From Gracilariopsis chorda (taxonomy: Eukaryota > Rhodophyta > Florideophyceae > Gracilariales > Gracilariaceae): a stretch of DNA of 64,000 nt. The stretch spans positions 1 to 64,000 of the forward strand of contig NBIV01000192.1 of NCBI GenBank assembly GCA_003194525.1, in the 5' to 3' direction. Below the pieces are notes generated by a model that did no database searches, was not told where the DNA came from, and saw only the letters and a list, made by a program, of their open reading frames with translations. Below, in pieces: positions 1 to 49,414 of the stretch (positions are counted from its first letter, which is position 1; each line of letters opens with the position of its first letter). The translations under genes were made by a program, and so were the position numbers.

Positions 1-61
1 AAGCAGATGGTTATGAGGGAACAGAAGAGAAGAAGAAGACTGTTGGGCTAGAGAGCTGGAG

Positions 62-574
62 TTGGGAGTAATGGCTGCGAATGGAGGAGGAGATGCAGGT
101 GGTGGACCGGAGCACAGATTCAGAAAGGATATGAAGGCCCGGGTTAAGGCTTTAAGTGCCTCGTTGAAGGAGAGTTTGTATACTTGTATGACAGATGTAG
201 TGTTTGAGTATGTGGCCTGTCTTGGAGCGTTTCTGATGGTGGGATTCCACTGGACGTGGTTACTATTGTTCAAAATCGGATGAAAATGGCAGGGGTCTTG
301 ATGGGGATCATGTGGAAGGGATCGTGGAGTGCTTGGTGAGGGAAATAGGAGCAGTTTATCGAAAGAACTGCTCTAGAAGACAGAGTGACTGTCCTTGAAA
401 TGCAGCTTAGAGAGGCCGTTGATATTCAGGTGCACTTGAAAAACAGAGTGAACGGAGCACAACACGGGGCCGGTGGAGCAGGCGGTGCTCATAGAAGCTG
501 CCTAGGGACGAGGAAAAGAATGGAAGACAAAAGTGAAGATGTGGAGCGAGGTACTCTTGAAGAGAAACGTTGAC
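62..574 (+). pseudogene. Coiled-coil cargo protein, frameshifted (homologue of 27,333-28,090)
   Basis: No known family recognised. A Gly-rich start is followed by a helical stretch (RFRKDMKARVKALSASLKES), then in a second frame from about 306 a segment resembling HVEGIVECLVREIGAVY and in a third frame LEDRVTVLEMQLREAVDIQ with heptad spacing. The same modules in the same order occur in the intact-looking pair of frames at 27,333-28,090, which shows that this is one decayed or frameshifted gene. It lies at the left edge of element A, transcribed towards the convergent minus-strand cargo gene. A role as an accessory or oligomerising protein of the transposon is possible but is inference. Confidence 0.5.
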
Positions 575-724
575 AGGTTAAGACATATGTTTCTGATGAA
601 GAAAGAAAAGGACGACTCCTAGCTCTTATGTGCATCATGATATAAATGAGACAATGCTTTATTTACGGCGGTACTAGAATGTATCTGTCATCGCTAATAT
701 CTTCTTCCATATCCTCATCTCCCT

Positions 725-2064
725 TCACCCTCCTCTTGAGTATAATGGCGTCGTCCGCATTATATTTCCATCTTCATTAGGGTCATATTCGCCATCATTT
801 TCATTTTGGGGGTCCTCGTCGTCTTCTAGAGGTTCTTGTGACACTCTGTCATCAGCGGAGCCCTCTTCGTTATCCCCAACTCCTGGCAACAGAATGGTTC
901 CTTTCGTTCCGCTTTTGTCCTTCCGTATTAAGTCCTCGTCCTCCACAAACCTGGGTCTAAAACTCGATTGAAGTTGAACGCATCCGGTAGCTTGTAGTCC
1001 TCTGGTACCATGTATATATGGTAACGGAACAGAAAATTCTGTGCCATGATCGCATCTCTACTCCCTGCCCCGCATGGGACACATCTCCTCTTCCAATGAA
1101 TATAGATAACGGTGGAATTAAGAACTTCCTGGTCGCGTATCCTCCAGAAACCGCTTCCAACTCCGCATTTGTTGTCGCAAAATGCTTGTGAGACCTCACA
1201 CCCACAATGGAAACGAATACTTGCCAGAGGCTATCATAAAACCCCGGATTCTTTTCGTTCAGTTTCTCCGGGATCGTCAGCGTCTGAAATCCGTATGTAG
1301 CTTCTGTCTGGGACAGCCGCGTCCAGTACACAACACTCTACCCCCAGTCTTTGGCGCAAACATCTTATGCACCGCCACTCGGTTATCTTCCAATCCTAGG
1401 CATACACAGATCTGACCCATACGTGCATCCAACAACGCCCGCCTCTTCACCACCCAGTGATTCTCCGTCGTTCTTTTCCATTTCATCCGCGATTCCTCTC
1501 CGTGTAGTCATATACCTCGTAGACCCAGACAGTCTGTCTGCTTCATCAGCTGCCTCCCCAGCATTGAAAATGGGGTTCCAGAACTCTTGATTCTCTGCTT
1601 CTCGAAGATCTTGTTGGCGATTGAAATACTCCTCGAAGAATCCAAGCAGCTTCTCACTCACATCACCATCCATCAAGTCACTCATGGCATGGAGCCTGCT
1701 CCTCATTCCTTCATCCGTTCCGAAACCTTCCAGCACACAAAATCCTCGCTCTTTCAACTCGCTTGTCTTCTTCGCAAAGTACACCATGGCGTAGTAGTCC
1801 TCCTCCGCCCGCTCCCAGAGACTGTTCGCTTCCGCATCGCTGAGAACCGGCGCTGCTTCTTCAGACGCTTTCGTTTCCCTATTCCATTCGCTCAAAAGCT
1901 CCTGGAACGCACCATGCCAAGAAAACTGCGTTGATGAAACACCCCTCATGGTCGTTCGGCCCAAGCAAATGCAACGGTGCTCCTTGGAAGATGTATCCTG
2001 TCCATCCACGCGTACATGCCCTTAACACCATCTGCAGTTGCGGTGGCCACCTGCTGGGCAACAT
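725..2064 (-). pseudogene. 2OG-Fe(II) dioxygenase domain, frameshifted
   Basis: Seen on the minus strand, in order: a helical N-terminal segment (about 2,064-1,750) ending in ERGFCVLEGF, typical of the start of 2-oxoglutarate dioxygenase folds; then KMFAPKTGG and QKLHTDF, an HxD iron-binding motif near 1,285-1,300; then IFIGRGDVSHAGQG near 1,080-1,100, giving the distal histidine; then an Arg-containing strand (WHRIFCSVTIYTW). An acidic tail follows (946-725). Family knowledge: HxD...H with a downstream Arg defines Fe(II)/2OG oxygenases, including AlkB and TET/JBP nucleic-acid oxygenases. The frame changes at about 1,474-1,480 and 1,287-1,289, both at homopolymers. Substrate unknown; a nucleic-acid or histone substrate is inferred from the neighbouring DNA methyltransferase and SET gene. 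It may be the C-terminal part of one long product starting at 4,689. Confidence 0.6.
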
Positions 2065-3948
2065 GTCACATACTTGAGCCAGCTCAAGCCCCCCACATTG
2101 GTATCCTCCTCGGCCTTGACCAATCCTTCTGGAAGAATCTGAGGCACTTCATCATCAAACTTCTTCTTGTTTGGATCGTTCCTGTCTTCATCGTCTCCCC
2201 CCTCGTCGTCACTGAAAGCAGTAGCTTATTCTTTCTTTAGAAGTGGCGTAGTTCACGTCCTCGCTCTGCTTTCAGAATGTTGATGACAAAGTCAGGAACA
2301 TCATCGGTTCTCTGCGTTTTCGCATCGGCCTCCACCGATTCAAACAACAGCTCCTCAGCGTCCTCTTCGTCTTCCGAGTCTTCATTGCCGGTTTCTTTGC
2401 TTTCCGGACCTTTCTCTTCCTCTTCCCCAGCGTAGATCCCGCAGAAACCATCCCCGTTGCACCTCCGTCTTTCAAGTGGCCCAGAGCCTTCTTCTTACTC
2501 GCCCTCGCGGCAAGCTCGAATTACTACCTGAACTGCGCTTTGCCCCTGTGTCGTCGAACAGTACAGTGCGGGAGGGACAGGACTTGGATTTGGCTTTGAA
2601 AGTCCATACGGAACGTCGTTCCCAATCTCTTCCTTCAGATTCGTCAACCTCTTCGATATGTTTCCTTCCCACATGGCAAGAGTGGCCGCCCTCTCCAGGC
2701 GTGCGGTGTTTCTGGCAACATAATCTCGAACAGGAACAACCAGGACCCTATCACAACCTCAGTTTTTGAACACGGTATGAAGCCCTATGTTCTTCGTGTT
2801 CGCCACTTCTTCAAATAGGTTGTAAGCTTGCTCACAACATCTGAAGGAATGCAACCTCATGTCCTGAAACCTGCCCATAGCAGTGCCTTTTGATGCTCTT
2901 CGCACGTCATAGTGTTCCTGTAAGGCTTCCAACGCAAAGTTCATCCTGTCCCTCTTCAGATTGAAGAACCTGTCACTGGAAAAGTGCGTAATCCCCAGCT
3001 CCGGGTACTTGAAGCACATTTCCTTCATTCTCGACATGAAGTCTTCGTCGGTGAACATTCTCAAACCCATGTCCGCAAACCGCAACATGTTTTTGTGGGT
3101 TTGAAGTCTCTATCACCTTGCGCTTCAAACAGTGCACCACGTAGCATTGTGCGCGTGACTTTCTTGAAGTCCACCTTCGTCTCCTTCTCAATCGTTTTCA
3201 ATAAACGAATGAATGGAGTAGAGCTTGTCTCGAAATGAAATCACTCTAGCCGCAGCAACCGTATCATTCAGCGCGTTTCTAATCGAAATCACTTGAGAAC
3301 ATGGTCATTGGCAGCCCATCACGTCTTTCTCCAAAACGATACACTGAGCCGGTGGCAGACATCCGGAAGTTTTTCATTCGTTTTCCTCTGGTCGAGGTAA
3401 ACATTCAAGCGTGTAACCCGTCAACCAAAGTACAGTCCACCACAATTTGGTTCCCTTCAAACCAGTCATCTCCCGGCTTCTTCGTACCGATAATAGTGAC
3501 ACTCAGATTCCCAACGGACCCCAAGATTCCGTAGAGCTCTATTTTGCTGCTCTACTTCTTTCTTGTGGGTGAGGTCCAGTTCTCGCACACCGTCCTCCGG
3601 AGGCTTAATGAGGTCAATGTCGACAACATACGTATCGTATGTGTAGTCGTTCATATCAAACGAAGTATCCAGCATACTGTTGTCGACATCATAAGGAGGT
3701 AGCTCATCTCCCTTATCGAACAATTCAACTTTGGCCTCTGAAGCCAATGCTTTCGAACCCACGAACTGCAACTCATCATCATCACTTCCTTCTTCCTCCC
3801 CACCAGGTTGCTCTGGGAATACAACTTCCATCGGTGCGCTGCTTCCTGACTCCATAATTGCTTCTGCAACTTGGGTCTGATACGCCCAATTGACTCAGAC
3901 CACCACTGCCTGCATCAATTGCGTTGCCAGCAGTTCCCTCAGCCATTG
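2065..3948 (-). pseudogene. Central part of the minus-strand cargo gene, acidic, many frameshifts
   Basis: No known domain recognised. Minus-strand fragments in changing frames read as one protein: an acidic stretch around 3,855-3,466 (SDDDELQFVG, then SMLDTSFDMNDYTYDTYVVD), a helical segment around 3,088-2,759 (YPELGITHFSSDRFFNLKRD), a segment around 2,700 (NLKEEIGNDVPYGLS), a Glu/Asp-rich run near 2,400, and SDDEGGDDEDRNDPNKKKFD near 2,200 leading towards the 2OG region. Codons stay protein-like across the breaks, so this is either a decayed gene or one with several consensus errors. It joins the N-terminal domain at 4,689-3,949 to the dioxygenase domain downstream; whether it was one polypeptide or two or three genes cannot be decided. 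Confidence 0.4.
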
Positions 3949-4689
3949 TTAATGCTTTCGGGGGGGCAGAAACGGCAGTCTCCGGTGTCTGTAACTGCGA
4001 CGCACCTCCCCACTGCTGGCTCCAGGGTTTACTGGAGGCTTCGCCGGAGTGACAATGGGATTCGCGCTGTTTCCTTTCTTCGGATCGCTCAGTCTGACCA
4101 CCTTCGCCTTTCCAGTGGAGGTGGTCGTCTTCACATTGGAGTGGAACGCACCCTTGGGTATTTCATCATCGTCGTCGTCACTCAAGCTCACCAATTGCGT
4201 CAAATTCTTCGCTTTCGCCTTTCTTGCGGTGTTCTGCTTCAACTTCTTGGTGGACGGATTCTTCGTCGCAGCGGGAGTCTGGGCGGAAGACGGTTTCGCA
4301 GCGGGAGTGGAGGGAGTGGAGGCTCCGCCACCAGAAGGTTGCATCATGTTCACGTCCCAGCAGTAGAAAGCGTTGCTCTCCATATCTCCCAGAGGGTTCG
4401 GCACGCTGTCACTCGTCTTGAACTGATACGGGTACTGCATATCTTTGCCATCCTCAATGAGCACCTTCTATATGACGACAAGGTCCTCTGTCGGCTTCCC
4501 CTTCAGTTCGTGCCCATGCAACGTCCTCACCAAGTGCCCACCAGCACCGGAATCACCTCTGACAAAGGCAGTCCCCACGCTCTTCTTCTCCCCATTCGGT
4601 AGACGGACGACCAGGGTCACCTTCTCGCTTGGGTTCGGCACCCAGGATGGGTCACTGGGCTGCTTTGTGCCGCTGCGCGTTGTTGGCAT
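3949..4689 (-). pseudogene. PTTR-type cargo protein, nonsense-mutated (homologue of 24,668-25,690)
   Basis: Family unknown. The start is placed at 4,689 because MPTTRS there lines up with MPTTRGK at 24,668; the open frame extends to 4,836 upstream. Shared blocks are a beta-type segment (KVTLVVRLPNGEKKSVG), a Gly-rich turn, HGHELKGKPTEDLVVI, and then YPYQFKTSDSV and AFYCWDVNMMQ. A TAG at about 4,468-4,470 replaces the Trp found at this point in the intact paralogue; the frame then continues through a Pro/Ala/Thr/Lys-rich linker and an acidic cluster (SDDDDDEIPKG). It faces away from the palindrome block at 5,117-5,294 and is divergent from the methyltransferase side. Being present in both elements A and B, it is probably a core cargo gene. 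Confidence 0.55.
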
Positions 4690-5092
4690 TGCGCTATCGG
4701 ACGATGTTGCCCTCGCTTTCCGCACAGAGGCACTGGGTCTGGTAGACCTTCTAGTGTGCCGCCTTTTGTCCGCCTTTGCATTCTTGCGCACCATGATGGG
4801 AAACCTTTCGATAAGCGACCTTTCGATAAGTGACACGGAATCGCGTAATCTGGTGCAGACGGTCGCGAAAATCAGTGCGTGCTGACATCTGAATTCAACC
4901 TTGAGGGAAGGCAGAGGTTCTCTTTGCGCCCTTTCAGTCGGACCAGGTGCTAAGGTGGCACGAAGAAGTGGATTCGGTGAGTTCGCTCACAGTTCTTTGC
5001 GGAGGAAGCATTCCGGTCGCCCTTTCCACCTCTTCTCTAACCCCCTCCTTCCACGCGTCAACGCTTCATTGCTGGCACTAACCCCCAGGCCT

Positions 5093-5316
5093 GCGCAGCT
5101 GCTCCGGGTGGTCGGTCTTGACATTGTCGGTCGACAATGTCAAGAACGACCCCCCGTAATTTAATCAAAAATCAACATTCTGGTGTCCGTGCTTGACATT
5201 GTCGGTCGACAATGTCAAGAACGACCCCCCCTTATTTAATCAAAAATCAACATTCTGGTGTCCGTGCTTGACATTGTCGACCGACAATGTCAAGACCATC
5301 CACCTGGCGCAGCTGC
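5093..5316. repeat. Imperfect inverted-repeat arms enclosing the palindrome block
   Basis: The left arm 5,093-5,116 (GCGCAGCTGC then TCCGGGTGGTCGGT) is mirrored by the right arm 5,295-5,316 (ACCATCCACCTGGC then GCAGCTGC). Together with the inverted core of the third palindrome they make the whole ~220-bp block an inverted repeat. It could be a small foldback insertion or a functional cis-site of the element. Confidence 0.65.
5117..5294. repeat. Three 28-bp palindromes at exact 75-bp spacing
   Basis: Each site (5,117-5,144; 5,192-5,219; 5,267-5,294) reads CTTGACATTGTCG, a 2-bp core, then CGACAATGTCAAG. The arms are perfect inverted repeats. The core is GT in the first two sites and AC in the third, so the third site is the first two in reverse. 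The first two are followed by a near-identical spacer (runs of C, TTAATCAAAAATCAAC, TTCTGGTGTCCGTG), giving a 75-bp tandem unit. Symmetric arms round an asymmetric dinucleotide resemble a dimer-binding operator or a serine-recombinase-type crossover site; no recombinase gene was recognised in the window. Confidence 0.9.
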
Positions 5317-5733
5317 GCCGTTAGACCGACAACCTGAACTGTGAGAACTGTGACGAATTCTCGAAGTTTCACCTTCTCCGTCTGTTATGCAGTGCCCAAC
5401 TCCCTCATTCCAAACAAAACCCTCCGAAGTTTCCCTCCCTGCTCCATTACACACATCGAAATCAAATCTATTTGAAGTTCGAGGGACGTGAATCATCAGA
5501 ACGGGCGCCTTCGTTCCTCGGTTGCCACGAAGCATCTCCTTCGCAACCATTCAAACTCGAACGCAATCTTTCGTGCATCTGTGCATCTCCCGCCGAAATT
5601 CCACCCATGTCGTTCCCCTCTACTAAACAGGGGAGTATCTCAGGTGCACCCGTGATAGGGCATAGGGCTCCTGCGCACCCGCCCTCAGACATGAGCATTT
5701 TCGGAAAGCTTCACCACCATCTGGAATGTGTTT

Positions 5734-6651
5734 ATGTCCGTCCGTGATGCGTACGCCGAATCGAGAGGTTCCGGGGTCCCTAAACGCGATGTCAGATTAG
5801 AGAAGATTGTAGAGTTTATGGTACAGAATCGTCGAGCGAATTCAGAAGTGGTCGGATTGTTGGAAAGATTCCTTGGTTCCTCCCACACCTCCTACAGCGA
5901 TGAAGAGGTCACTGCTTATCTTTGCACCTCTGTACAGGGTCCGACGGAGTACTTCCGACAGGTTTATCGATATGTGGCATTGTTCGATAAACAAGACGGG
6001 TCGAAAGACAGGCGTGTACGGAATTTTACGAGTGGACCATTGACGGGAGGCGCGGAGGTGGAACAGGGATGGTACAAAGGGTGTTCAACAATGACATCTT
6101 CAAGAGGTACTTTTGCGGAGCCGCTACGGGGAAGGGAAGGGGAAGGTTTAGGACCGTTCCTGCTACTCGATTCCAACAGCTGCTGTACCTGTCGGTGGTA
6201 AAGCACATCGAGATTGAACGGACGGGTCGGGAACGGAAGCGACGCCTCGGACACGGAAAGAAGGTGAAGGCAGTGAAGTACGTGGAAAGTTTCACCATGT
6301 CTAATCGCATGCACGGTCAGCGTATGGCGTACGGCGTACAGCACGTATGCAGGGCTTGGGAAGTGTTCGCTGTCGTTCTGGGTTTCAGAGACTGCGAGCA
6401 GATGATGCTTCCTTATCTCCTCATCAACAGAGACACTTTTAAGCTCTGTGATATTCACTCCCGAACGATTGGTTACTGCCCCAAAACCGCCGCGTACAAG
6501 CTGGGACAAGAAATGAAAGCCGACAGTATCCGTGGACAATGTTGTTCCCTGGGCTATTGCTTTTTCGGATGACGTAGACCGCAATATGCGTATTCTGGCC
6601 AGAGAATTCGTCTCGGATCTTCGGCCTATTGTACTGGACAAGGAGATGTAA
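5734..6651 (+). pseudogene. Unknown cargo protein upstream of the DNA methyltransferase (two frame changes)
   Basis: Not recognised. ATG at 5,734 (TTTATGTCC). The frame runs to about 6,070, shifts by -1 at the GG pair near 6,071-6,072, then shifts by +1 at the AAA run 6,516-6,518, and ends at TAA 6,649-6,651, giving about 305 residues. The first third is helical (VEFMVQNRRANSEVVGLLER); the middle is basic (RTGRERKRRLGHGKKVKAV), suggesting nucleic-acid contact; the end includes NVVPWAIAFSDDVDRNMRIL. Both breaks lie at homopolymers, so the gene may be intact in reality. It ends 21 bp before the methyltransferase ATG, in the same direction; it could be a target-recognition or accessory partner, which is inference only. 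Confidence 0.45.
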
Positions 6652-6672
6652 TGAGCTGAGTGAAACCGAGCA

Positions 6673-8101
6673 ATGGCCAGTGCTATCTACGTTTACGCGA
6701 GGTGGCACGAACCCACCGTTCGATTTGACTCCTTGTCCGAAGATATTGTCAAATCAGTGAAGGAAGCTTGTGCAAAGCATAATTTTCAACCCAGCAAAGC
6801 TTGGTCGCGCCCTACGGATGTACATTCCAAACCATCCGCCGCTCCTGGAACCAAGAGCCACACGAAGAGCGTGCAGGCCGTTGGAAAGCAGCTCCGTGAG
6901 AGATCCAATGGCTCCGGACAGACGGATGGGAGCGGTAGTAGCAGTGATGACGTAATTGCCACGCCTACTGCTCCCGCTGCTGCGGAGATGCAGGCAACGG
7001 TGGACTTTTCGGTGAACATCCTCCCTCCTCATGGGACGCTTGGGCTTGTGACTGCGAAGCCTATGAAGATTCTGGAGTCTGTCATGGACAAGAACTTTGC
7101 GTTCTACTGCGTGGAATCCGAAGAGCTGGTGGAAGTTCATGAAAGTGTTCCGGGTGGCACCATATCTCCGAGGCGGAGAGTTCAACTCTCTATATCTGAC
7201 GCGCCGTATCAAAATTCGGGATACCGAATACGATCGCATCAGTCACCAGAAGATGGTTTCGTTTGCCGATCACAACTCGGATGGCCTGCGTCCTGGCGGA
7301 CACTTGTTCGTCTTCTGTTCAGGTTTTCAGTTCCCGATATGGTACAAGATTTTGACTGACTGCCAATACGTTAATGCAGACGGGAGGATGAAGAAGTCTT
7401 TCACCGTGGATAAGACGTCCCTTTTGTGTTTGCGCCATCGCTCAAACCCGATGGTGTTCCCTGGTCGCAACAACATTAGCTTGTTCCCCGCAGGGGAGCA
7501 GGTAGTGCATGCGGTTCGGAATGGCATTCCCTATGCGGAGCAGAAGACAATGGTGAACTACCGTAAGTTCAACCATGTTGCCAGCCAATACCCTGGACAT
7601 GTCGGAGTAATCGATCAGGTTCCCCATCATGCCCCAGGAGAGAGACTGTACTGGAAGGTGCGGGATGGGCGACGATTTGTAAATCGTCAGATTCGCCCGG
7701 AGCAGAAGTCGAGACAGTTGATGAAAGAGCTCATAGCACGTTTTTCTCAACCTGGAGACCTTGTGATGGATTTCTTCTCAGGAACGTTTACCACAGCACT
7801 CGCGTGCATGGAACTTGTTCCGCACAGAAAGTTCATCGGTGGTGAGAAGTATCGTAATTGTTTCATACAAGCGAAGCATAATGGTATAGTGCATATGGGA
7901 AAGTTAATTGCCGACAATTCCCTCAAAGTCGGTCACTTGGAATGTGATGAACGCATCGGTACGAATGCTGTTGTACAGGCGGCACTTCATGTGACCAAGG
8001 TGTTCAGGAAGAGATCCAGAGGAATGCAATGGACAGCACTGAAGGATTTCCCGCAGTATCAAAGGTTTCCTTTCCATATAATGGCTTTTCTATCAACTTA
8101 A
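6673..8101 (+). CDS. DNA amino-methyltransferase, beta class (N6-adenine or N4-cytosine), one frame change
   Basis: Transfers methyl from S-adenosylmethionine to an exocyclic amino group in DNA. ATG at 6,673. A low-complexity Ser/Lys-rich N-terminus is followed by the catalytic motif IV as VQLSISDAPYQ (near 7,181-7,213), a helix-strand unit LRPGGHLFVFCSG (7,286-7,324), then near the C-terminus EQKSRQLMKELIARFSQPGD and the cofactor motif I DFFSGTFTTALACMEL with IGGEKYRNCF. The order IV before I marks the beta group (PF01555-like, as in HinfI or CcrM). DAPY replaces the usual DPPY. The frame changes at the A run 7,211-7,214; otherwise all motifs are present. The SET gene follows 9 bp downstream on the same strand. 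Base specificity cannot be told from sequence alone. Confidence 0.8.
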
Positions 8102-8110
8102 TAGGGTGAT

Positions 8111-8773
8111 ATGGATCTTATCGGCAAGTATCGTGCTAAGGCTTTACATCTGTGGCCGCAAAGCACTCAAGTAAAGCTGAACGAGTTAGAGCCGGAGTTG
8201 TTGCGTGGTGTAGATACATCAAGTTACTGGTGCGTGGTGGCGAAGTCTTCAGTGAAGCACCCATCTAGCGGGCTCGGAGTCTTTGGTGCACGGAATTTCG
8301 CAGAAGGAGAGGCTCTTTGTCACTTCTATGGGACTATTTTGTATCATGACATCAGTCAAGGTCCCCAAAAACATGTTACGTATGGGGAGGGGCTCATGGG
8401 AGCTACTGTTTCGCGTTTCAAGAAGTTCTCCATGGAAGTGGTAGGTAGCGGCATTGGTTTTGAAACTCTGCCTACCTATGATGGAGGAACGAAGACAGCG
8501 AGGATATGGATTGTTCCTGCACCTTTTTGTATGGCAGGCTATATTAATGATCCCCGCTACCTGGACGGAGACGAGGAGAAAGACTTAGCAGAAGATGAAC
8601 CCAACATACGAAGAAAGGCGAATGTTCAGATACGTCCGGTGAGCTCTACGTTATCGCAGCAAAAGATTATGGAATACACTCTGCTATCTGCGAGAGCAAT
8701 ACGCGATATAAAGGAAGGAGAAGAGTTGTTTCTTCGCTACGGGAATGATTACGTTTTTAGAAGCACGGCTTGA
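8111..8773 (+). CDS. SET-domain protein methyltransferase
   Basis: A 220-residue protein, almost entirely SET domain; it would methylate lysines, in histones for most family members, using S-adenosylmethionine. Visible motifs are GLGVFGARNFAEGEALCHFY (SET-N, residues ~56-75), GYINDPRYL ... EPNIRRKANVQIR (the Asn-containing cofactor motif, residues ~138-177) and ARAIRDIKEGEELFLRYGND (C-terminal motif with catalytic-type Tyr, residues ~197-216). No pre-SET or post-SET cysteine clusters, so it resembles minimal SET proteins such as those of large DNA viruses. The frame is intact. It starts 9 bp after the methyltransferase stop, so the two are tightly linked. Histone substrate is inference. Confidence 0.85.
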   Translation: MDLIGKYRAKALHLWPQSTQVKLNELEPELLRGVDTSSYWCVVAKSSVKHPSSGLGVFGARNFAEGEALCHFYGTILYHDISQGPQKHVTYGEGLMGATVSRFKKFSMEVVGSGIGFETLPTYDGGTKTARIWIVPAPFCMAGYINDPRYLDGDEEKDLAEDEPNIRRKANVQIRPVSSTLSQQKIMEYTLLSARAIRDIKEGEELFLRYGNDYVFRSTA

Positions 8774-9257
8774 AGTCTTCTTACCTGTGTTACTTGTGAA
8801 GCACTATTTTGAGTAAACTTCTATTCTGTTATTCTCGACATCCTAGTTCCTGTCTTATTCGTTTTCAAAGCTTTCAATTGTGAAATGGGATAGAGGTGCT
8901 AAATGGCATTTAGTTCAAGTGAATTAATAGAAAGAAAGAGGAACAGTATAAAATATGTATACATGTCGTTAGGGATTTGAGGGAGTGTGTGGAAACGAAT
9001 CGTGAAAGAAATGGATGAGGGTTTCCAAATACTCCATTTTTGCATAGGTTTTTGGGTAGCTCGTCTTTCATGGCGGGATATTCAAAAATCTATTTTTCTC
9101 GGGCTTCGGATGACACAGTTTATACATCTTCTGGCTCTTTCGCCTCATCCCGCAAAGTCACTTTCGAAGTCAATCCTTTCCTTTGTCTCCAACCTGGTCT
9201 AACTTCTACTTTCCGCATCCCGATACCGTGGTTTGGTTCAATACCGCCAATTTACGG
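8774..9257 (+). other. Intergenic region upstream of the 9,258 gene
   Basis: AT-rich. Apart from a TATA-box candidate at 8,947-8,955 and an upstream in-frame ATG at 9,183, nothing recognisable. The open frame reaches back to 9,183, but the local sequence 9,183-9,257 has no feature that favours it as coding. Confidence 0.4.
8947..8955 (+). promoter_or_regulatory. Candidate TATA box
   Basis: TATAAAATA in an AT-rich stretch between the SET gene and the next plus-strand gene, about 300 bp before the ATG at 9,258. This suggests that the 9,258 gene has its own promoter. The call rests on sequence and position alone. Confidence 0.35.
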
Positions 9258-11753
9258 ATGGGAAAACAGCAGCAGCGCGTACGGTACAGTAAGGAGGGCG
9301 ATACGTCGAAGTCTCGCAAAGGAAATGGTGGGAGGCCAAGTGTGGACTCGGAAAGACCCATCGCGGGAAGTTCAAGTGCTGCAGATGCGCGGAAAAGCAA
9401 GAACCGGGGTGTATATGTGAGGAGAGGTCCGCCGCGTTCTGGGTTGCAAACGACGGAGAGGCGACGTGAAACTACCATAGTACAAACGGGGAAGGAAGGT
9501 GAAAAGCAGGAAGGAGCTACCTCAACTATGACCGACCGTACGGTGAGTGAAGTCGTAAGGAGGAAGAAGGAAAGACAGCCGAGAGGTCCAGTTACTGGTA
9601 ATGGTGCCGTTCACACCGTTGTTTTGGTAGAAAGTGAGGAAGAGGAAGAAGGAGAAACCGAAAGAGAACCGAAGAGGCGAAGGTCTAGTGGCAGTTACGG
9701 GGGTGTTGTCGAGGAGAGACGTAAAGGGAAGGCAGCCGAACAGTGTTTAGAGAGGAATGAGGAGCAGGGCAGCACTCTTGCCTCAAAGGAACACGTGAGT
9801 GAGACACCGCAAAACGAAGTACACCAAGGTACGGGGGGAATTGGGGAACGAAAGAAGGGTCCCGTTCGTTTTCAAGCTGCAGTACGACGTGGGAGCGGGG
9901 AGGGACGTGAAGGGAAGGAGAATACGAAGCAATCAGCCGTTGTTTGCGGAAATGGAGGCCGAACCCGCAGAGTCCCGGCACGCAGAACAACGCAAGGGTC
10001 CTCTTCCCGGCTCAATCGGGATAATTCTAATAAGAGTGTCGAATATGGATACACTGACAAAGCTATACGAAGGGAGTCGATACAGTGCACGAGGGTAGGT
10101 GGTGGTGGGAAGGGAGATCGGATCAGGGAGAAGAAAAGATATGAGGAGGAGAAGGATGAAGATGGAATTGAGCCGTTGAAGGAAGTCGGACATAAGAGAA
10201 CGGAGCATGGAGAGGCAAAGTTTATGGGACGGAATCAGCTGTTGACAAAGCTTGGAGAGCTGAAGGGGGAACTAAGAAAAGCAAGAGATGACAACACTAG
10301 CCTCCAACTAAGCTTGAACCTGGCAAACAGGGAGATGAAGAGGCTAGAAGATGAACTTACGAAGAAAGAGATGCTGCTGACGTCATTACGAGAGAGTATT
10401 ACTGGTCGGACAAGAAAACGGAATGGTGAAGACATCAAGAGTGGTCGGAAACGGTACGAAATCGAAGTTGATATACGTTTCATTGGAGTAGCCTCGAGAG
10501 TTTATGAGAAGATATTGGTATATGCGAAGCAAGAGACCAGTTAGTTGTGCCTCGGAAGGAGAGTTTCCGGGCGAAACTGTTCGAACAGGGCTGAAGAGGT
10601 GGGACCGGGGAGGAAGCACAGTGTTCTGATTATAGACGAGAAGGAGATGGTGCCTTTGGATCCTATGGAGCTGGCGCTAGGAAGAAAGTCGTGGGGGCCA
10701 AAGTCCTCCACTCCGTCTTTTCAAGGAGGAAGTGATGAGATGTTGTTGCATGTGGTGCGGATGGAGCTGGAGAAACCGATTTGGAGAAGGTTGGAATCCA
10801 TGGGGATTAAGGTTGACTGCGAAGAAGAGTTGAGGAGGGATCTGTGTTTGAGGAGGCGCATGAAACAGGCTCTTAGTGATACTGTCGGGTTGCGGAAAAG
10901 GAATGCGAGGGATAGGTTATTCTTTGGTCTGGAAAACACTCTACTTGCTAGGAAACCGTGGAAGGAGGATGATGAAGAGGTGGCTGTGGCGTATGAAGAG
11001 CAGATGAAGGAGGCGGAAGAGAAGTTGTTGCCGAAAGATGAGAGGGGAGCTCCGATCTTATGTGCGTTGAGGTTGTCTGGTTTAGACAGAATATGTTTCT
11101 CTGGTTATGACGTGACTTCGACAAAGTATGGAGACGAACCAGATGACTTGTACTTCAAGAACGGATTGAGTGTGGAGGTCTTGAGGGAATTTATGGGGTA
11201 CGACGCGGAGCGACCGTGCAGGGAACTGGAGAAGAGCTATGTAGATGGAAGTATGATGCATTTGGCGCGATTGGATGCGTGGATTGCTTCTGTGGTAGAG
11301 GCATTGAAAGAATATGTGGGGAGAGGAGGGAAGCGGCAAATGCTGTTTTCGAAATTGTATGCAAAGTATCTCCCGCTTGCTGTGGAGGATATCCTACTGA
11401 CTGCGAGAAGGAAGATCGAACGGAAGTACGGGAAGGAGCTTGTGAACTATGGTGTGAAAGCTGAAGATCAGACTGAAGTGGTAGGGAATGAGGAACGTGA
11501 GGGGACCGTTGCGTGTTGGATGCCGTCGAACCAAATGATGTATCTGTGTGTCCAGTACGAGGTGTTTTTGGATGAAATGACTATGTACCTTGGTAATGTA
11601 TATGATTGCTACGTAGGCCGTTGCATGCCTGAAGCACGGGAGTTTAAGGAGTTGGTAGCCGTTGAGGAAGAAATGTTGGACCCCAGAGAGGAAGGGGAGG
11701 GGAAGGAAGACGCAGATGACGGTGGGCGTGGAGAAGAGATGGCGGAGGAATGA
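9258..11753 (+). CDS. Unknown cargo protein with coiled coil, interrupted by one in-frame TAG
   Basis: Family not recognised. ATG at 9,258 (MGKQQQRV); an in-frame ATG at 9,183 is possible. Residues ~1-300 are rich in Arg, Lys, Glu and Gly and probably disordered (EEEEEGETEREPKRRRSSG). A leucine-heptad coiled coil follows at 10,225-10,395 (LGELKGELRKARDD, LEDELTKKEMLLTSLRES). TAG at 10,542-10,544 interrupts, and the same frame continues without another stop to 11,753. The second half looks globular (LSGLDRICFSGYDVTS, WMPSNQMMYLCVQYEVFLDE) and ends in an acidic tail. It is convergent with the transposase, 53 bp away. The TAG may be a mutation, an error or read-through; a DNA-binding or scaffold role is conceivable but unsupported. 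Confidence 0.5.
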
Positions 11754-11806
11754 GAAGTGTAAGAAGTTCATTGCTAGAGTTAGCGGGTCTGTGTTTCTAA
11801 ATTTGA

Positions 11807-14800
11807 TTACCTTGCGGTGGAATAAGCTCTTGCTCGTGGGTCGCGGAAGAATCTGTTCATATAGAACCGATGTTGTTGCCATGGAAGGGGTGGAAAGAAA
11901 GGTCGTGCTGGGTAGTTCTGGCGAACAAGATGCACGGAACTTTTGATGGCGGAGAAAGGAACAAGACCGAACCAACGTGCGGCATTGGGGCTAGGATTCG
12001 AGGTTCCGTGAAGAGCGGGGAGAATAGTATGGTCATGTTCATCGTCTGTCGCCCAACGGAGGGTGATGCAGCTAAGAGTTTCATCCACGTGATCAAGAGG
12101 ATCTGTGAGTTCGAAGAAGCGGACGAAAGCATATTCGCGTTCACCTGGCTCATGGTCTTTTACGCGGAAGCGGAGAAGGGCAAGAAGCTTACATACCCAA
12201 GCCGTGGGGACCTTGCAGTTGGGTGGTGGAGTGCTTGAGACGAGAATATGAGAGAATTTTGGAAGTTTTGAAGGACCCAAGCTGGTGGTGGCAAAGATGC
12301 GCTGGAGAACAGGGGCCGATGGTTCTCTGAACCGGACGCATTTGAACGTTCTGTCGACGTCTTGCAAGGAAGGGGTGAAACCGCTGCGGATGAAGGCGGA
12401 GTTGACGACGGAGAATTTGAGAGAAGAGAGGGAGGGTGAAGAAGGGGAAAGTCCAAGCGCTTCGAGGCATATATTGTGAAACGGTGAGATTGCGTCTCGT
12501 GAGATTGTGGTGATGAACGATATGGTGGAAGAGGTGAAGATGTTTGAGAGAGAGGCATTGGAGCAGTTTGGGTTCGCTCGAAGGTACTTTTCTGCGGTGA
12601 TTATATCCCGAAAGAGAATGGTGGTATAGTCGCGAACCATGGAATGTCTTCGAGCTGGGAGTATGTGGGAGTTTGAGGAGGAGGAAAGGCGGTGGGGGAT
12701 GGCAGTTGAGTTTCGAATGCCTTCTGTGAGTTGAATTGCGTCGATTGTTTCTCTGTGAGCGGTTGAAGATCTTCAGGATGTGCGCCGATAATGGTTTTTG
12801 AAGAGTAGGTGTGCGTGTTCGTAGATGCCAGCGTCAGTGAAATGGAGACCTCCGTATAGTTTGATGTCGGCGACGATGTGATCGAGAAGGTGGAATTTGA
12901 GCGTTCCGAAGTGAGAAGCCTGGAAAGGGCCGAGGATGGAGACGAAGAGATGCTTGAAGTGCTTGATGAGTTCTTGGAGGGAACGAAGTTGTGGGTGTGT
13001 CCATTCTGAGGTGGTGTTGTAGTGGAGTGCGGTAGTGAAGAGGTAGGCGTATGTCCTGAAGATGGATGTGATGGGTGCTGTGTCAACTTCGTTGCAGCAA
13101 CGATCGAAGAAGGCGCCTACGAAGGGAAACAACATGTCGACTGCGCCGTAATCTTTTGCCTGGAGCGTGCCTTTGATGCCGTCCGGGGTGAAGAAGCCGT
13201 TGAGGGATTTGCCCTTCTCTGCGGTGGAAGAGTCAATGTGAAGTCCCGGTGCGGAGAAGTTGACTTCGATATCTGCAAGGATGTTGTTTGCATGGGTGAG
13301 AAGGGTGCTTCCAATGGATTTGAATGATCTCGAGGAGGAGCCAACAGTGATGAAGAGATTGTCGGACTTCAGGCGTTCGATGGTTGCGAGTTTGACGAGT
13401 TTGGTGGTACCGAGGTGGACATTGTGAAGGGGTTCGAAGGAGAATATGGAGTATGGGGTGAGAAGTGGGGAAATGTTGAGGAGGGGGTAAGATTCGAAGA
13501 AGGAGTGGTAGGGGGAGAGGGAGTTTGTGTGCAGGAGAGATGCTGCTTGATCTCTGAGAGTCCTTGCGACGCGCGGTCTGCGTTGTATTTCGGCGTTATT
13601 TGCATCCTTGAGAAGGGCGTCGTGTGAGGATCTTGTTTGGAGGGTGTGGGAAGCGGTTCGAGGGGTTAGGGAGCTGAAGTGGAGGCTGAGGTCGGAGCGG
13701 GGGACGAGACATCTATGGCAGGGCTTCAACGGTTTTGTGCCGTGGAGGACAGCGAGGATGTCTTTCGCTTCGGGGATGTCTTCAGCATAGTTTGCGATGA
13801 CTGGGAGGCACTGCCGGATGACTTGGTCTTCATCCCGGAAAGGAAATCCTTTGAGGGCAACAGCTGCGAGGGGCTCGAGGATGGTTTTCAGAGCTTCTTC
13901 AATGAGTTCCATTCGGGTGGTACGGGTGATGGCGGAGGAAAGCGAGCGGTCTTCGAGGGAATCCTCGTCGGATGGGGAGGAAGGGGCTTTGAAGGACGTG
14001 GGGAAGTAGCCGAGTAGGGTGTAGTTACGGGATATGCAATGGCGGCGGAAGGAGTCTGAAAAGATGAGGAGGGTGATGTGGAGAGGGTAGGAGGTGATAG
14101 AGGAGTTCTTGAGCGAGTTGGAAGACTTGTCTGAGTAAAGCTGTACGAAGCCGATGAACGATTCAATGCCAGTGATGTTGGAGTTGTGCCAAATAACATC
14201 TGGGTCTTGAGAATGTAGGATGTGGTGCTTGACGTCCTTGTAGACGCATGTACCGACTTTTGAAGCCATGGGGTGAGCGTGTGCGAGGGTGCCGTCTGAC
14301 GCGCACTGTCTTACTGGTTGGAAGAAGGTGTTTGCCCGAGAAGCGTAGCGGAGTTGTTTGAGGAGGACATCAACGGTGTTTTTCAGGTAGAGAGTTGTGG
14401 TGATGTTTGAGGGCTTGTGACGAATAGTTCTGGATTCGAAGCCGATAGAGCCGACGGTGTCCTCGAAGAGCTTTGCATGGAGTTCAAGGCAGTGGGAGAC
14501 AGACGTTATTTGTTGGATGAGTGCCTGGGAGTAATCCGGGTCTTTGAGGATGTTGATGAGTTCGTCTGCTTTGCGTTTGCCGAGCTTGGTGGCGATGGAA
14601 GCGATGTAGGAGACAATAGGGTGGAGGTTGGCAGGTGCGGGGGTGCTGGAAGCAGGTGTGTTGCGAGGGGAGGAGAGAGAGGAGTGGAGAAGTTGGACAG
14701 CGTCTGCGGAGCGAAGGACTTGAGCGAGCTGGCTGGAATGGTATTCATTGTCTTCTGCGAGCGGAACGTTGTCAGAGGGGCGGTTTGAGATGCGAACGGA

Positions 14801-14983
14801 GCGGGACTCTGCGGTCCGAATGCGTGGTCGTTTGGTGCGGGGTGGGAGCTGGGTGCCGTTCTTGGGAATGGTGGCGAGGAAGGGGTTGGGGATGTGGCGG
14901 AAGCGACAACGGCGCTGGTGTTGGACAAAGGAGGCGTGGAGTTTTGTCTAGAAGGAGCACCTGTGGAAGCCACAAGGCTGCAT
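11807..14983 (-). pseudogene. Plavaka-type transposase, full length with two in-frame stops
   Basis: Homologue of the transposase at 21,246-24,230 along its whole length. The start is set at 14,983 because MQPCGFHRCSF lines up with the zinc finger at the start of that copy; VQHQRRC completes the finger. Shared core blocks are LYSDKSSNSLKNSS, YPLHITLLIFSDSFRRHC, LLGYFPTSFK, then AEDIPEAKDILAVLHGTKP, CHRCLVPRSDL, FEPLHNVHLGTTKL and TLKFHLLDHIVADI. Family knowledge: a YPV-like strand, an RRK-like basic site, GYLPT and a Cys pair mark Plavaka transposases known from fungi. TAG at 14,948-14,950 and TGA at about 12,773-12,775 interrupt one otherwise open frame of some 1,059 codons. The C-terminus extends ~85 residues beyond the element B copy. 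Confidence 0.8.
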
Positions 14984-15169
14984 GGTGCAGAGGAGAAGGA
15001 TGTAAGTCTGTGGGAGATGAGAAAGACGTGGGAGGCGGTCCAGGAGAATATACGACTGCTCAGGAGCAGCAATCAGGTCGCATTGTGATGCGCCAAAGAG
15101 GTGCGTGGCAGACACGGCAGGCATGGCAGGTGTGTGGACGGGAAAGTGGTTTGGAATGAAAACATTCAA

Positions 15170-16400
15170 AGTTGTTAAATGTTTTAAGCGACGGCGAGGA
15201 CTTGATTATTTCGCATGAAGAGGTTGGGGACATGTGTAGACGAGGGTGTAGATCAGTGTGATCTTCGGAGCGTGTGATTTCCTGGACGCTGGATGTGGCG
15301 GAACGTCCCGCTCGTGCTTGCAGGTTCGTGAAGTGCAATTGAGTACGTCTCGTTTTTTCGTGTGTTGACATGTGCTGACTCTTGCTACGCTTTCTATGTT
15401 GATGCGGGAGAGGGAGCAACGGCAGTGGTTTGAGATGAAGCTAGGGGCTTGGAAGACTGCGAGGAACAGGTGAGTTTGCTATGCTGTTCACTTTTCAATC
15501 TGGACGAGGACCTGACATGTTTTGTTTCTTGATACGGAGCTATATGAATGAAAGGGGGTGGATCGGGTGAGCAGAAGTGGTTGCTACAAGGTGAGTTAGA
15601 CTGCCAATGTTATCTGGTAAAGACTACGCACGGAGATCTGACAAGAGTTTGTTGCTGTCGTGACGCGTTGTGGATGCGGTGATAGGTGAGAGCGAATGAA
15701 TGGCGAGCATAGAGGTGAGTGCAGTTGTTTTTTAGTTTTGCTTCGTTCTTGGATGGAGATCTGACAAGTTTCTGTTTGTCAGCGTGAAGGGAGAGACATG
15801 AGGGAATGGGTGCGAAGAACTGGTTGCTACAAGGTGAGTTTCATTGAGAATGTTTTCTGGGACTGGCTACCTACAGAGATCTGACATGTTCTTGTTTATT
15901 GATGCGAAGCGAGGGAGATGGGAAATGGGTTCGAAGAAGTGGTGGTTGCAAGGTGAGTTTAAGTGCTAATGTTATCTGGTATTGGCTATGTACGGAGAAC
16001 TGACAAATTTTTGGTTTCTGCTGCGAAGCGTTGTGGATACCGTACTAGGTGATAAGGAGTGGGTGTTTTTCTTAGAGGGGAGTGCGGTGGCGAAGTTATT
16101 TTGGATTCTTTATTTGATGGAGATCTGACATTTGTTTGTTTATTGATGCGAATGTGCGAGAGAGAAGTTGCAGATTGGATGAGGTTTGATGGTTTCTAAC
16201 GAGTTTTTGATTGTGTTTGCTTATTTGTATCTTCTGCAGGTGCGAATGGGGAGGTCAAAGGGAGACGGTGCAGCGAGGGGGGATGAGCAGAGGTTTGGAT
16301 GAGGTACCTGTGTTCAACACAAGTTGTGTTATTGGAGGCGTCGTGATGAAAGGAGGGAGCGCATTCTAACTTGTTTCTTTGTGGTTTCGTTTTGTGACGG
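15170..16400. other. Non-coding 5' flank of transposase A with tandem repeats
   Basis: No supported gene. The transposase copy in element B sits only ~0.57 kb from its terminal repeat, against ~1.95 kb here; the extra length is the tandem array at 15,450-16,200 plus the foldback element at 16,401-16,550. Confidence 0.5.
15450..16200 (+). repeat. Degenerate ~120-bp tandem repeat, intron-like units, six copies
   Basis: Two cores recur in step. GGTGAGT, the 5' splice-site consensus, occurs near 15,470, 15,590, 15,711, 15,833 and 15,952. GGAGATCTGACA or a close variant, containing the branch-point-like CTGAC, occurs near 15,510, 15,637, 15,760, 15,880, 15,996 and 16,122. Each CTGAC is followed by a T-rich run ending in AG. 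Units are 116-126 bp, and between them lie ~50-bp exon-like pieces such as GAACTGGTTGCTACAAG. They read as repeated short introns on the plus strand, antisense to the transposase. A plain satellite that happens to contain splice-like words is the alternative. Confidence 0.55.
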
Positions 16401-16550
16401 GTACAGGCCTCGCCTCACCGTCTATCGTTGAATAGAGGCCGTTTTTGTTACCGTTTTCGATTTGTTCTAGGCGCACTACGCCTGGAGCAAAATGTAACGA
16501 CAATGAAAGCGGTTTCTATTCCACGATAGACGGTGAGGGGAGGCCTGTAC
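16401..16550. repeat. 150-bp foldback (MITE-like) element
   Basis: The ends GTACAGGCCTCGCCTCACCG and, on the opposite strand, GTACAGGCCTCCCCTCACCG are inverted repeats, and the pairing continues inwards through TCTATCGT..GAATAGA to a small loop round 16,475. No clear target duplication was seen in the flanks. Confidence 0.75.
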
Positions 16551-16689
16551 TGGCGTAGTATAGATTCAAGATTACATCCATCAGAAGAGGTAAAAGTGAA
16601 TGAGTACCGCATCCGAAACGTCCATGTCTGCTAGATTTCATCGCCGATGGTGAATGATCTGGCACTAGATGACAAACATTCCCCCCTTC

Positions 16690-16933
16690 AATTTTCGTAG
16701 TATTTATGCTCTAGTATGAATGAGAACTGAACGATAGACTGCTAGTTTCTTACTGCTAGTATGAATGTTGCTAGTTTTATCACATTCACCTCTGCATTCA
16801 TTTGAGCTAGTATTTTGTGCTAGATATACTAGCACAAAAATTCTGAGATTTTTTTGAATGCCCACCATAGACTTTCTAGCACCCCCCAACTAGAAAAACC
16901 AGCACTCAAACTAGCATTCCGAAAACACAGACG
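16690..16933. repeat. Right terminal inverted repeat and subterminal GCTAG repeats of element A
   Basis: The 28-bp terminal repeat at 16,906-16,933 matches 20,679-20,706 inverted with one visible difference. The 215 bp inside it contain about ten CTAG words, mostly GCTAGT or its reverse. Subterminal clusters of short motifs are typical transposase-binding regions in CACTA-like elements. Confidence 0.75.
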
Positions 16934-17519: not shown

Positions 17520-18065
17520 TGTGGTATAACCGAACACGGTCAATGACAAAATGGGTAGTTCGTGTGGACCTCGGCTGTACAGAGCCCCGGGTGGGCTCGA
17601 CCGGGAAGGGGAAAAGAGGGCTACTGGTAGGGTCTGTGGCCACACCAACCACTAGAGGTGCAAGATGGTCTGCTAGTTGTACGTACAGGCGTGGTAGTCG
17701 CTAGGTATCGTGACTGGCGGACTAGTAATAACTGATAAGATCTTGGACAACCGAAAAGGTTGACTGCAAAAACCAGTTGGTATTGCAATTATCCAAGAGA
17801 AGCGTACCGTCTACCTTGAAGGGAGAGGAGGCTGACGCTCACCTTAAGGTTTGGCGAGCTCGACTCCCCGTGGACATGGCACGCTAGGTGTGCCACGTCT
17901 GAGGTACACCCTAGTAGTGCATCTCAGTACTGTAGTTCACAGTTAGAACTATTTCTTAAAATTAAATTTAAATATTAGGACATACCGACCTGGTCCAATC
18001 AACCACGTGGCAGACCGAACTGGTATTTTGCACACCACTTTGGCACAAAAACCCACTATACGACA
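17520..18065 (-). repeat. 3' LTR of element I
   Basis: Starts TGTGGTATAACCGAACACGG and ends ACCCACTATACGACA; the same sequence recurs at 32,080-32,236 plus 44,742-45,129. It is followed by GACCCCCCTCTTAC, the complement of a polypurine tract. Confidence 0.85.
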
Positions 18066-18309
18066 GACCCCCCTCTTACATTTAGCCACGACCCCGTGGG
18101 TGCCAGTTCAGTCCCTAATGTGTTGTTCTGTAACGATTTGCACCCATTAGTCAGTACCCAGGCGGTGCTTGAGCACCGGTCTTAGTGCTTTCCACGTCAG
18201 CATCGACCGAAGTAACCAACTTGGTTTTGTATTCCTCCCCCTGCATCCTGCATCTTTTTCTGTTCAGTCAATTTCCTCTCCGTCGTATCACCGTGTGGGT
18301 CTCTTTCGC
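18066..18309. other. Short non-coding gap between LTR and integrase of element I
   Basis: Contains the polypurine-tract complement at its left edge; no antisense gene like those of elements II and III is visible. Confidence 0.4.
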
Positions 18310-20678: not shown

Positions 20679-20706
20679 CGTCGGTGTTTTCGGAATGCTA
20701 GTTTGA
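20679..20706 (+). repeat. Left terminal inverted repeat of element B
   Basis: 28 bp beginning CGTCGGTGTTTTCGG and ending ATGCTAGTTTGA; pairs with 28,509-28,531 and matches the right terminus of element A (16,906-16,933) in inverse. Confidence 0.85.
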
Positions 20707-21245
20707 CAATCAAAAGGGAAAGAATTGAAATGGACGGATATCGACTCTTAAAACCCACTTTTGAATGAATCAATTTCCATCAAAATATTTTCACACATTC
20801 AACACTGCTAGTTTTTTGAAAGTATAAACTAGTAAAGCACTTCACATTTCCAAGTTATTTCGGACCAAAAACCGAGTCCGGACTCCGCGAAGTGGAGTCC
20901 AGACTCCACTACTACATACCTTCACATGTGAACGTGAGATTGAAAATCTGACCGGACCACCGGAACTGCCCCTTCAAATAGAAGGATAGGATGCTCAGAT
21001 AAATACATATATAGGAAATACATTAGAGTTTACAAAACATGATAGCCCTCGCTATCCTTCACTCGTTGTCAGTGTCTGCGGCCTTGCATAGCATGCACCA
21101 GTCCACGAGCCAGCGCAAAACGCTCGGCATCACCTGCTCCACTTCATCCCCGTGCGCCATAATAATTACGCTCCCGCATTTCGCTCTCCAACAACCCCTT
21201 TGCTCCCCTTTCTCCTTCCAATCCTTCAACTCTCCTTCCCGCACC
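20707..21245 (+). promoter_or_regulatory. Upstream region of transposase B, candidate TATA box at 21,006-21,013
   Basis: Non-coding 0.54 kb with several CTAGT words (subterminal repeats), a small hairpin GGACTCC ... GGAGTCC at about 20,880-20,900, and ATATATAG at 21,006-21,013. The TATA-like word is only ~25-30 bp before the first in-frame ATG (21,039), so translation from the ATG at 21,246 fits better. Confidence 0.4.
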
Positions 21246-24230: not shown

Positions 24231-24276
24231 TTTTAAACTAATTTTTTTTGATTTTCGGAACTGCTGGCCGCCACGT

Positions 24277-24362
24277 GGTGGAGGTCCGTGGACCGGAGTG
24301 TCGTGGCGCTTCATCAGGCGCCTGATGAAGCGCCACGACACTCCGGTCCACGGACCTCCACC
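24277..24362. repeat. Perfect 86-bp palindrome
   Basis: Two 43-bp arms with no spacer, centred between 24,319 and 24,320 (AGGC|GCCT). The outer arm starts GGTGGAGGTCCGTGGACCGG. It lies just after the shortened end of transposase B, inside element B. Such a structure can form a hairpin and marks either a foldback insertion or a head-to-head joint left by rearrangement. Confidence 0.95.
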
Positions 24363-24667
24363 CCCAAAAACAAACTTCGAATACCAATGCAAAATCATTA
24401 CAGGTGCATTGCAGCGCCGCCTAAATGAACTTAATGGTTGTCAGGAAACGTCTTCAATACCATGTATTTCAAAAGTATAGATGCTCACGTCGCCTGAACC
24501 GAGCAGACGTGATCACGAGAGCATCTTACGCGACTGGGTGCCACGAAAACTTGATCACGCGAACGCTTCAAGATTGCAGCGTGGTTCTCGGCCGGAATAA
24601 GAGTTCTACGAAGACGAAGAAGCATTGTCCCAGGAAATTCGCTTCGCTGCGAAGGACTGACATAGAA
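24363..24667 (+). other. Gap between palindrome and PTTR gene
   Basis: About 305 bp. The frame of the following gene is open from 24,425, but homology to copy A supports the start at 24,668; this stretch is probably promoter and leader. Nothing else recognised. Confidence 0.4.
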
Positions 24668-25690: not shown

Positions 25691-25893
25691 TGCGGTGTGG
25701 GGTGCAAGCAGTGCTTGATTTATGAAAAGGAGTGTAGACACTGAATGCATTATCGTGTACTGGTTCAAAACACTGCTTCGCGTGTTTGGAATTGGGAGGG
25801 TTTAGCAAGTCGGAGGATGGTACGTTGTGCATATAAGCGAGGAAGAGGTTGGTTCAAGTGGGGAGGAGGTACAATCGTGATCGACATTCAAAC

Positions 25894-27090: not shown

Positions 27091-27332
27091 ACACGGTCGT
27101 AGTTCTACCTGTACATACCTAAGTTAGTGTGATAGAGTTGTAAACTGAAGGAAGTGTTAAACTAATGTCGTTCTAAATTTTTCGTTTCAGATTATTGGTG
27201 GGACACGACTCGGTGGGAAATGGCGCGAAAACGGGCGAGTGAAAAAATGCGGTTGGATAAGTACCTGGGGAGTGCTCGCTTGGTGGTTGGGTTAGGAACG
27301 GAAGCGCCGTTGTGGTGGGGCGTGTAGTAGCC

Positions 27333-28508: not shown

Positions 28509-28531
28509 ATAGCATTCCGAGAACACCGACG
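28509..28531 (-). repeat. Right terminal inverted repeat of element B
   Basis: ATAGCATTCCGAGAACACCG then ACG, the inverse of the left terminus with one substitution inside the outer 20 bp; flanked by the TT duplication. Confidence 0.85.
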
Positions 28532-49397: not shown

Positions 49398-49414
49398 CTG
49401 AGGGAGTCTCCCCT

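Follow-up and report, generated by a model that had tools for sequence, protein, structure and literature searches.

Methyltransferase-SET and oxygenase-like genes as cargo of giant Plavaka-type DNA transposons in the red alga Gracilariopsis chorda

The first 64,000 nucleotides of the Gracilariopsis chorda contig NBIV01000192.1 (assembly GCA_003194525.1; hereafter the window) begin with a decayed giant Plavaka-type transposon, element A (positions 1–16933), whose left end coincides with the contig start or falls beyond it. Judged from its sequence, element A belongs to a family of giant (~16–18 kb) Plavaka/CACTA-type DNA transposons in this red alga. Beside the transposase, the family carries four cargo genes: a fusion of a DNA methyltransferase (MTase) with a SET domain, a divergent open reading frame (ORF2) with a 2-oxoglutarate (2OG) oxygenase-like end, a charged/coiled protein and a multi-pass membrane protein. 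As the likeliest explanation we infer, at about an even chance, that the transposon carries a self-marking, anti-silencing module. An earlier note on this DNA had reported a cluster of MTase, SET and 2OG genes on a Plavaka-type transposon at 725–8773. The clustering is real and stronger than claimed, with matches to PF01555, PF00856 and the Plavaka family PF18759, but the bounds were too short: the element reaches leftward to contig base 1 or past it, and rightward to 16933.

In element A, ORF2 (728–4986, minus strand) is broken by frameshifts and stops. It comprises an N-terminal region, a region with a VDGxHR motif seen in relatives, and a C-terminal 2OG-Fe(II) oxygenase-like domain (931–2021, minus strand), whose motifs HTDF, IGRGDVSHAG and FRYHIY are spread over three minus-strand reading frames (931 to 1507). 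Three palindromes of ~48 nt with 75-bp spacing (5107–5304) separate ORF2 from the divergent ORF3, which agrees with the palindromic region described earlier between these genes. ORF3 (5695–8770, plus strand) encodes an N-terminal region, a beta-class DNA amino-MTase (PF01555) and a SET domain (PF00856; 8270–8743, plus strand). It is frameshifted, and two in-frame stops separate MTase and SET; the same stops occur in the C435 copy and are absent from the C12 copy. ORF4 (9114–11753, plus strand), a charged/coiled protein with an 821-aa relative in C550, is present as two adjoining open frames. ORF5 (11807–14947, minus strand) is the Plavaka transposase (PF18759) with at least one in-frame stop. 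Thus, ORF2, ORF3 and ORF5 are all broken in this copy. The right terminal inverted repeat (TIR) of element A lies at 16911–16933 (minus strand) with 1 mismatch; just inside this end, we also noted a 55-nt inverted repeat, 84% complementary, with a 40-nt spacer (16401–16550).

Collinear counterparts of window positions 2518–12796, 96.0–99.8% identical and each including the greater part of this stretch, occur at four other loci. Three of the four (L020, L021 and L026) span 8,773–11,807 whole and the fourth (L019) reaches 11,768, which is its contig end. The earlier note had allowed for a left boundary of the transposon between 8,773 and 11,807; none is found there. The C12 copy, 97% identical to element A, stops at the same right point (C12:182411; window 16933): it lacks 783–4951 and 8343–11580, yet its similarity runs to 16933 and then ends. 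L028 lacks 8343–11580, after which its alignment resumes and joins the right end. An A-type left terminus was not found in C12:169300–170500.

Both ends of the family were seen in short copies. L011 and five other loci share 99.6–99.8% identity over ~8 kb and are bounded by 23-bp inverted repeats starting CGTCGGTG. All five short copies with both ends have a 2-bp target site duplication (TSD; TA in L010, CT in L011, CG in L012, TA in L014 and GT in L018), while L015, cut by its contig end, was excluded from this count. A second end was found in five of six long copies, with 1–4 mismatches to the TIR pattern; in C35, no right terminus was found up to 206800. The five full-length copies span 15.8–17.6 kb, full-length meaning that both ends and the gene set are present, with frames that carry stops in places. 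Plavaka, MTase and 2OG matches lie inside C230:30444–46638 (TSD CT), C150:37369–53733 (TSD CA) and C1:171278–187084 (TSD TA), and are joined by a SET match inside C46:175528–193119 (TSD CA) and C242:18467–35983 (TSD AC). In total, each of the 11 copies with both ends known has a 2-bp TSD, where 2- or 3-bp TSDs are expected for Plavaka. TIR-like sites with at most 2 mismatches occur 240 times in the genome, versus once for a reversed control pattern.

PF18759 matched two window copies (E=6.8e-20 at 12773–14947, minus strand, and E=2e-21) and gave 114 matches in the genome, and PCPRC and HLLDH motifs were picked out by eye in the window translation. The termini are CGTCGGTG..CACCGACG and thus neither TGT..ACA (PlavakaA) nor CATCA..TGATG (PlavakaB). 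By these termini, we regard the family as Plavaka-like but as belonging to neither of the two described groups. The ~8-kb copies (for example L011:552–8536) share identical internal deletions and point to recent amplification; their mobilisation probably depends on a Plavaka frame of their own or takes place in trans. Mobility as one unit and recent amplification of short derivatives are both evident at the level of sequence. With terminal repeats, target duplications and many copies, the enzyme genes are cargo of a Plavaka-type transposon, as the earlier note had proposed, and the genome copy search found them together with the transposase and terminal repeats at other loci.

We then analysed gene geometry among the matches listed, that is, 150 MTase, 114 Plavaka, 85 SET and 110 oxygenase places (collapsed from 151 matches) and 100 of the 240 TIR sites. 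All counts are lower bounds, as many contigs are short. Within 16 kb of the MTase, 2OG was located upstream on the opposite strand in 63 of 63 pairs, SET downstream on the same strand in 60 of 65 (median 871 bp) and Plavaka downstream on the opposite strand in 72 of 78 (median 5.8 kb). All three partners were present at at least 12 of the 150 MTase places. Since this fixed geometry recurs at many loci, chance is excluded. A chance neighbourhood of unrelated genes, bacterial contamination or an assembly artefact is scarcely credible as an explanation: amino-methylases are typical of bacteria, but the G. chorda protein P0005 (BWQ96_00201) matches C1 with 100% identity over 234/234 residues, and the geometry, the TIRs, the matching TSDs and relatives named Pyropia yezoensis speak against a foreign or artificial origin.

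The near-complete copy C550 displays the gene order membrane protein gene, ORF2 (1417 aa), two 86-nt palindromes, ORF3, ORF4 (821 aa) and ORF5 Plavaka (1138 aa). Its ORF3 is frameshifted within the MTase; the right terminal repeat lies at 18048–18070 and a left TIR was not found. The 1417-aa ORF2 frame is open in C550 and C204, and 1065-aa ORF3 frames are open in C332, C745, C53 and C241. None of the copies examined was seen to have all its genes open. The ORF4 type has 59 matches in the genome.

In copies with an open frame, MTase and SET form a single protein. In the 1065-aa frame (C332, L016), PF01555 lies at 518–756 and PF00856 at 882–1044. In the window, PF01555 matched 7067–8098 (plus strand, E=2.3e-13) and PF00856 matched 8105–8770 (plus strand, E=2e-5) over positions 1–105 of 105, with 25.4 bits, above the cut-off; in the open 1065-aa copy, the SET match scores 22.0 bits, slightly under the Pfam cut-off of 22.4. 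The SET domain is complete, including the catalytic Tyr region, with YIND and EELFLRYGNDY present. The writer, possible eraser and histone-type writer of the earlier note thus belong to two proteins, not three.

Beta-class amino-methylases are defined by a motif IV of the form (D/N/S)PP(Y/F/W) ahead of an FxGxG-like motif I, and DPPY in such enzymes usually denotes N6-adenine. We found motif IV in 15 of 17 loci scanned. In nine of these 15 it reads DPPY and precedes DLFAGTF or DMFAGTF, as in the beta class. The other six, the window subfamily, have DAPY or DVPY and agree with the definition only in part; the DAPY reported earlier is therefore present, but as a subfamily variant. Among named enzymes, adenine methylases come closest (CcrM in NCBIfam, DpnA and CcrM in the PDB), with scores far below the NCBIfam cut-offs, and the MTase also resembles phage DNA methylases (phrog_67, E=2.2e-23). 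Its relatives include proteins named as Pyropia yezoensis (P0013 and P0017) and metagenome proteins, which extends the module beyond a single species. Both domains are precomputed in three metagenome relatives (P0011, P0012 and P0015).

The 2OG-like part forms the C-terminus of a protein of ~1400 aa (1417 aa in C550). In C550, the HxD...H iron triad and the arginine are H1223xD1225, H1298 and R1314. All 7 aligned relatives keep the D of HxD, the distal H and the R unchanged, and 6 of the 7 also keep the first H (lost in L034). The HxD...H oxygenase of the earlier note thus holds with respect to its motifs but not by family match: at E up to 5 or 10, none of the TET/JBP or 2OG Pfam families was found, and the search up to 10 gave only three unrelated families with one member each. 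Motif conservation is the basis on which we call the domain a putative 2OG-Fe(II) oxygenase. In the preceding region, VDGxHR is invariant in 4/4 sequences. A ParB-like domain beside a parS-like palindrome array was considered for this region and the idea dropped, as no ParB family of Pfam appeared up to E=10 and hhalign gave a probability of 0.1 against one ParB-methylase protein.

Selection was analysed by dN/dS. Between the two B-type clades, values were 0.18, 0.20 and 0.24 for MTase-SET, 0.11 for both 2OG and the VDGxHR region, and 0.18, 0.26 and 0.30 for Plavaka. Deeper unsaturated pairs gave 0.27 for MTase-SET, 0.13, 0.25 and 0.28 for 2OG and 0.39 for VDGxHR; the deeper Plavaka pairs, all against the decayed window copy, gave 0.36, 0.48 and 0.56. 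Within clades, the cargo ranged from 0.50 to 0.88, and one Plavaka pair reached 1.33. These ratios point to purifying selection on the cargo, and the low between-clade values indicate that it is kept functional. On the plain reading, active lineages would depend on these proteins, and copies would decay once inserted.

Such a pattern also suits a methylase that regulates transposition, an alternative we regard as possible though doubtful. Marks on the ends or on the palindromic centre would tell old from new copies or gate transposase binding, and SET and oxygenase would act on the transposase or on host proteins, not on chromatin. Dam methylation regulates some bacterial transposons in this manner. 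Between the B-type clades, selection on the cargo is at least as strong as that on the transposase, and both the fused DNA/protein methylase and the palindromic centre between divergent genes would befit a regulator. However, copies without the oxygenase region and with a truncated SET domain were amplified recently, which argues against this role unless the enzymes act in trans.

If the cargo instead is a self-marking, anti-silencing module, the fusion protein would place two marks on the chromatin of the element itself, one on DNA and the other a lysine methylation. The DNA mark would more likely be N6-methyladenine (6mA), because the B-type copies have DPPY. The oxygenase would remove or convert an opposing mark; the divergent central promoter would thereby stay open and the element escape silencing. 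The likeliest docking site would be the palindromes at this promoter. A looser scan revealed inverted repeats at the intergenic centre in 4/4 regions, with differing sequences: palindromes of 42–48 nt in the window type and of 86–94 nt in the C550/C332 type, and imperfect arms of 64–66 nt in L022 (C35) and L027 (C134). In other eukaryotes, 6mA accompanies permissive chromatin (PMC12695648), and the TET/JBP enzymes of fungal transposons are thought to counter silencing (PMC12730594).

Several observations weigh against a self-marking module. A strict scan detected palindromes in 8 of 17 stretches. Among the 150 listed MTase places, many of them on short contigs, 26 show no listed partner in the expected position and only 12 show all three. 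For the 2OG domain, neither Pfam nor NCBIfam gave a matching 2OG family and the PDB gave no matching sequence, and the window subfamily, with DAPY for DPPY, may be catalytically weak. The near-identical 8-kb copies no longer contain the oxygenase region, and their fusion protein is missing its N-terminus and the end of SET; mobility therefore needs no cargo in cis. Finally, synonymous sites are saturated in most pairs across the deeper split, and the ORFs compared were selected for being open, which biases dN/dS toward low values.

We next considered the methylation context of the host. A C5-cytosine methylase was sought with PF00145 and TIGR00675: neither yielded a candidate in the genome, whereas each matched in 10 of 14 control genomes; the search ran exon by exon, and a much diverged, intron-split or unassembled gene could escape it. 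Since no such enzyme was found, removal of 5-methylcytosine (5mC) is unlikely as the oxygenase's task, and a TET/JBP-type 5mC eraser is disfavoured. The TET/JBP precedent invoked earlier is accordingly weak, the oxygenase also having no match to a TET/JBP model. A search for MT-A70, that is, for other host N6 writers, gave nothing in the genome, but nothing in the control genomes either. Around 8% of the G. chorda genome has been reported as methylated, mostly at non-CG sites and evenly spread (PMC8566409). Such methylation is puzzling without a C5 enzyme; amino-methylases or artefacts of the method might account for it. In its most far-reaching form, which we think rather unlikely, the cargo would be a full chromatin-programming kit: one polypeptide writing DNA and lysine marks, a dedicated oxygenase, and the main or only source of DNA methyltransferase in the host. 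If so, transposons themselves would write part of the unusual non-CG methylation of G. chorda (PMC8566409).

Base composition was examined as well, for possible scars of methylation and for a target site. Singletons in the six short copies comprised 73 substitutions, 30 of them C-to-T or G-to-A and 10 of these 30 at CpG. The observed/expected ratio of CpG was 0.98 in window 30001–64000 and 0.86–0.88 in the elements. Among 136 strand-collapsed tetramers, GATC was the most depleted in the pooled elements and relatives (window 1–16933, L032, L033, L031 and L022), with 207 observed versus 334 expected. This depletion, together with the likeness of the MTase to phage methylases (phrog_67), would fit enzymes that protect the element's own DNA or damage rival elements or viruses in the way of a restriction-modification module. 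We nevertheless consider competition or defence distinctly unlikely, as none of the proteins scanned was recognised as a nuclease partner and the GATC signal is not element-specific: the ratio is also low in a gypsy element of the window (0.66), and L025 is not depleted (1.22). The flanks contain 81 of 101 expected GATC sites, a milder depletion, and GATC was accordingly not relied on as a guess at the methylase target.

The membrane protein gene (window 25837–27087; 417 aa in relatives) has 106 matches genome-wide. The protein is conserved, with at least five hydrophobic segments, and gave no Pfam match under E=0.05 and no NCBIfam match under 0.1. It could be the leftover of a particle or of passage between cells if the family were an endogenised virus-like element with a borrowed Plavaka transposase, and giant Plavaka-flanked repeats do lie beside endogenised viruses in Amoebidium (PMC11244446). 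However, none of the proteins scanned was recognised as belonging to a capsid, polymerase or packaging family, and no relative emerged from two single-protein scans of viral contigs, so that we hold a viral origin to be very improbable.

In a search of the open-licence literature, we recognised no description of a transposon with an amino-methylase-SET fusion. Closest are the fungal TET/JBP-carrying Plavaka and other DNA transposons (Kojima 2025, PMC12730594), which likewise combine a transposase of Plavaka type and TSDs of 2 bp with a 2OG-type oxygenase cargo. In contrast to these, the G. chorda oxygenase has no TET/JBP match, an amino-methylase-SET fusion is added, the termini are CGTCGG..CCGACG instead of TGT..ACA or CATCA..TGATG, and no C5-methylase was found. 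Enlarged EnSpm/CACTA elements of Chondrus crispus (Kojima, Bao and Jurka 2013, cited in PMC6431247) are also from a red alga, CACTA-like, 16–20 kb long and equipped with 4–5 ORFs. They may well represent the same lineage, as compared by the cited description; 1181 Chondrus families were in Repbase in 2015 (PMC4455052). Many genes of the giant Plavaka repeats of Amoebidium are tyrosine recombinases, with matches that include red algae, and a methylase-SET protein is unmentioned in the text portions available (PMC11244446). A transposon-borne SET domain is also known from HarbingerS and MuDR elements of Phytophthora (cited in PMC12730594), but these belong to other transposase families, and the portions available mention no fusion to a DNA methylase. 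Retrotransposons of dinoflagellates and charophytes carry DNA methyltransferases too (PMC5890265); these are of the C5 class, whereas the G. chorda element is a DNA transposon with a beta-class amino-methylase.

Transposons with one epigenetic enzyme are thus already known. The combination of a SET-fused DNA methylase with an oxygenase, maintained by selection of similar strength to that acting on the transposase, would represent a natural example of a mobile element with a writer-eraser system of its own. As a host with numerous recent copies and seemingly without a C5-cytosine methylase, G. chorda would offer a direct test bed for transposon-written DNA marks in a eukaryote.

Further features were noted in the remainder of the window. 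Element B (20679–28531) is a 7.85-kb internally deleted copy of a related subfamily with both TIRs and the TSD TT. It holds a long Plavaka frame, the membrane protein gene and a perfect 86-nt palindrome (24277–24362), and no MTase, SET or 2OG match was found inside 20679–28531. Frames of a Gypsy-type LTR retrotransposon, with an apparent C-terminal chromodomain recognised by eye, occupy 47736–54972. Close to the right end of the window, an LPMO_10-like open frame (62319–63674, minus strand) matched with E=1.5e-4 and 22.9 bits, slightly under the Pfam cut-off of 23.

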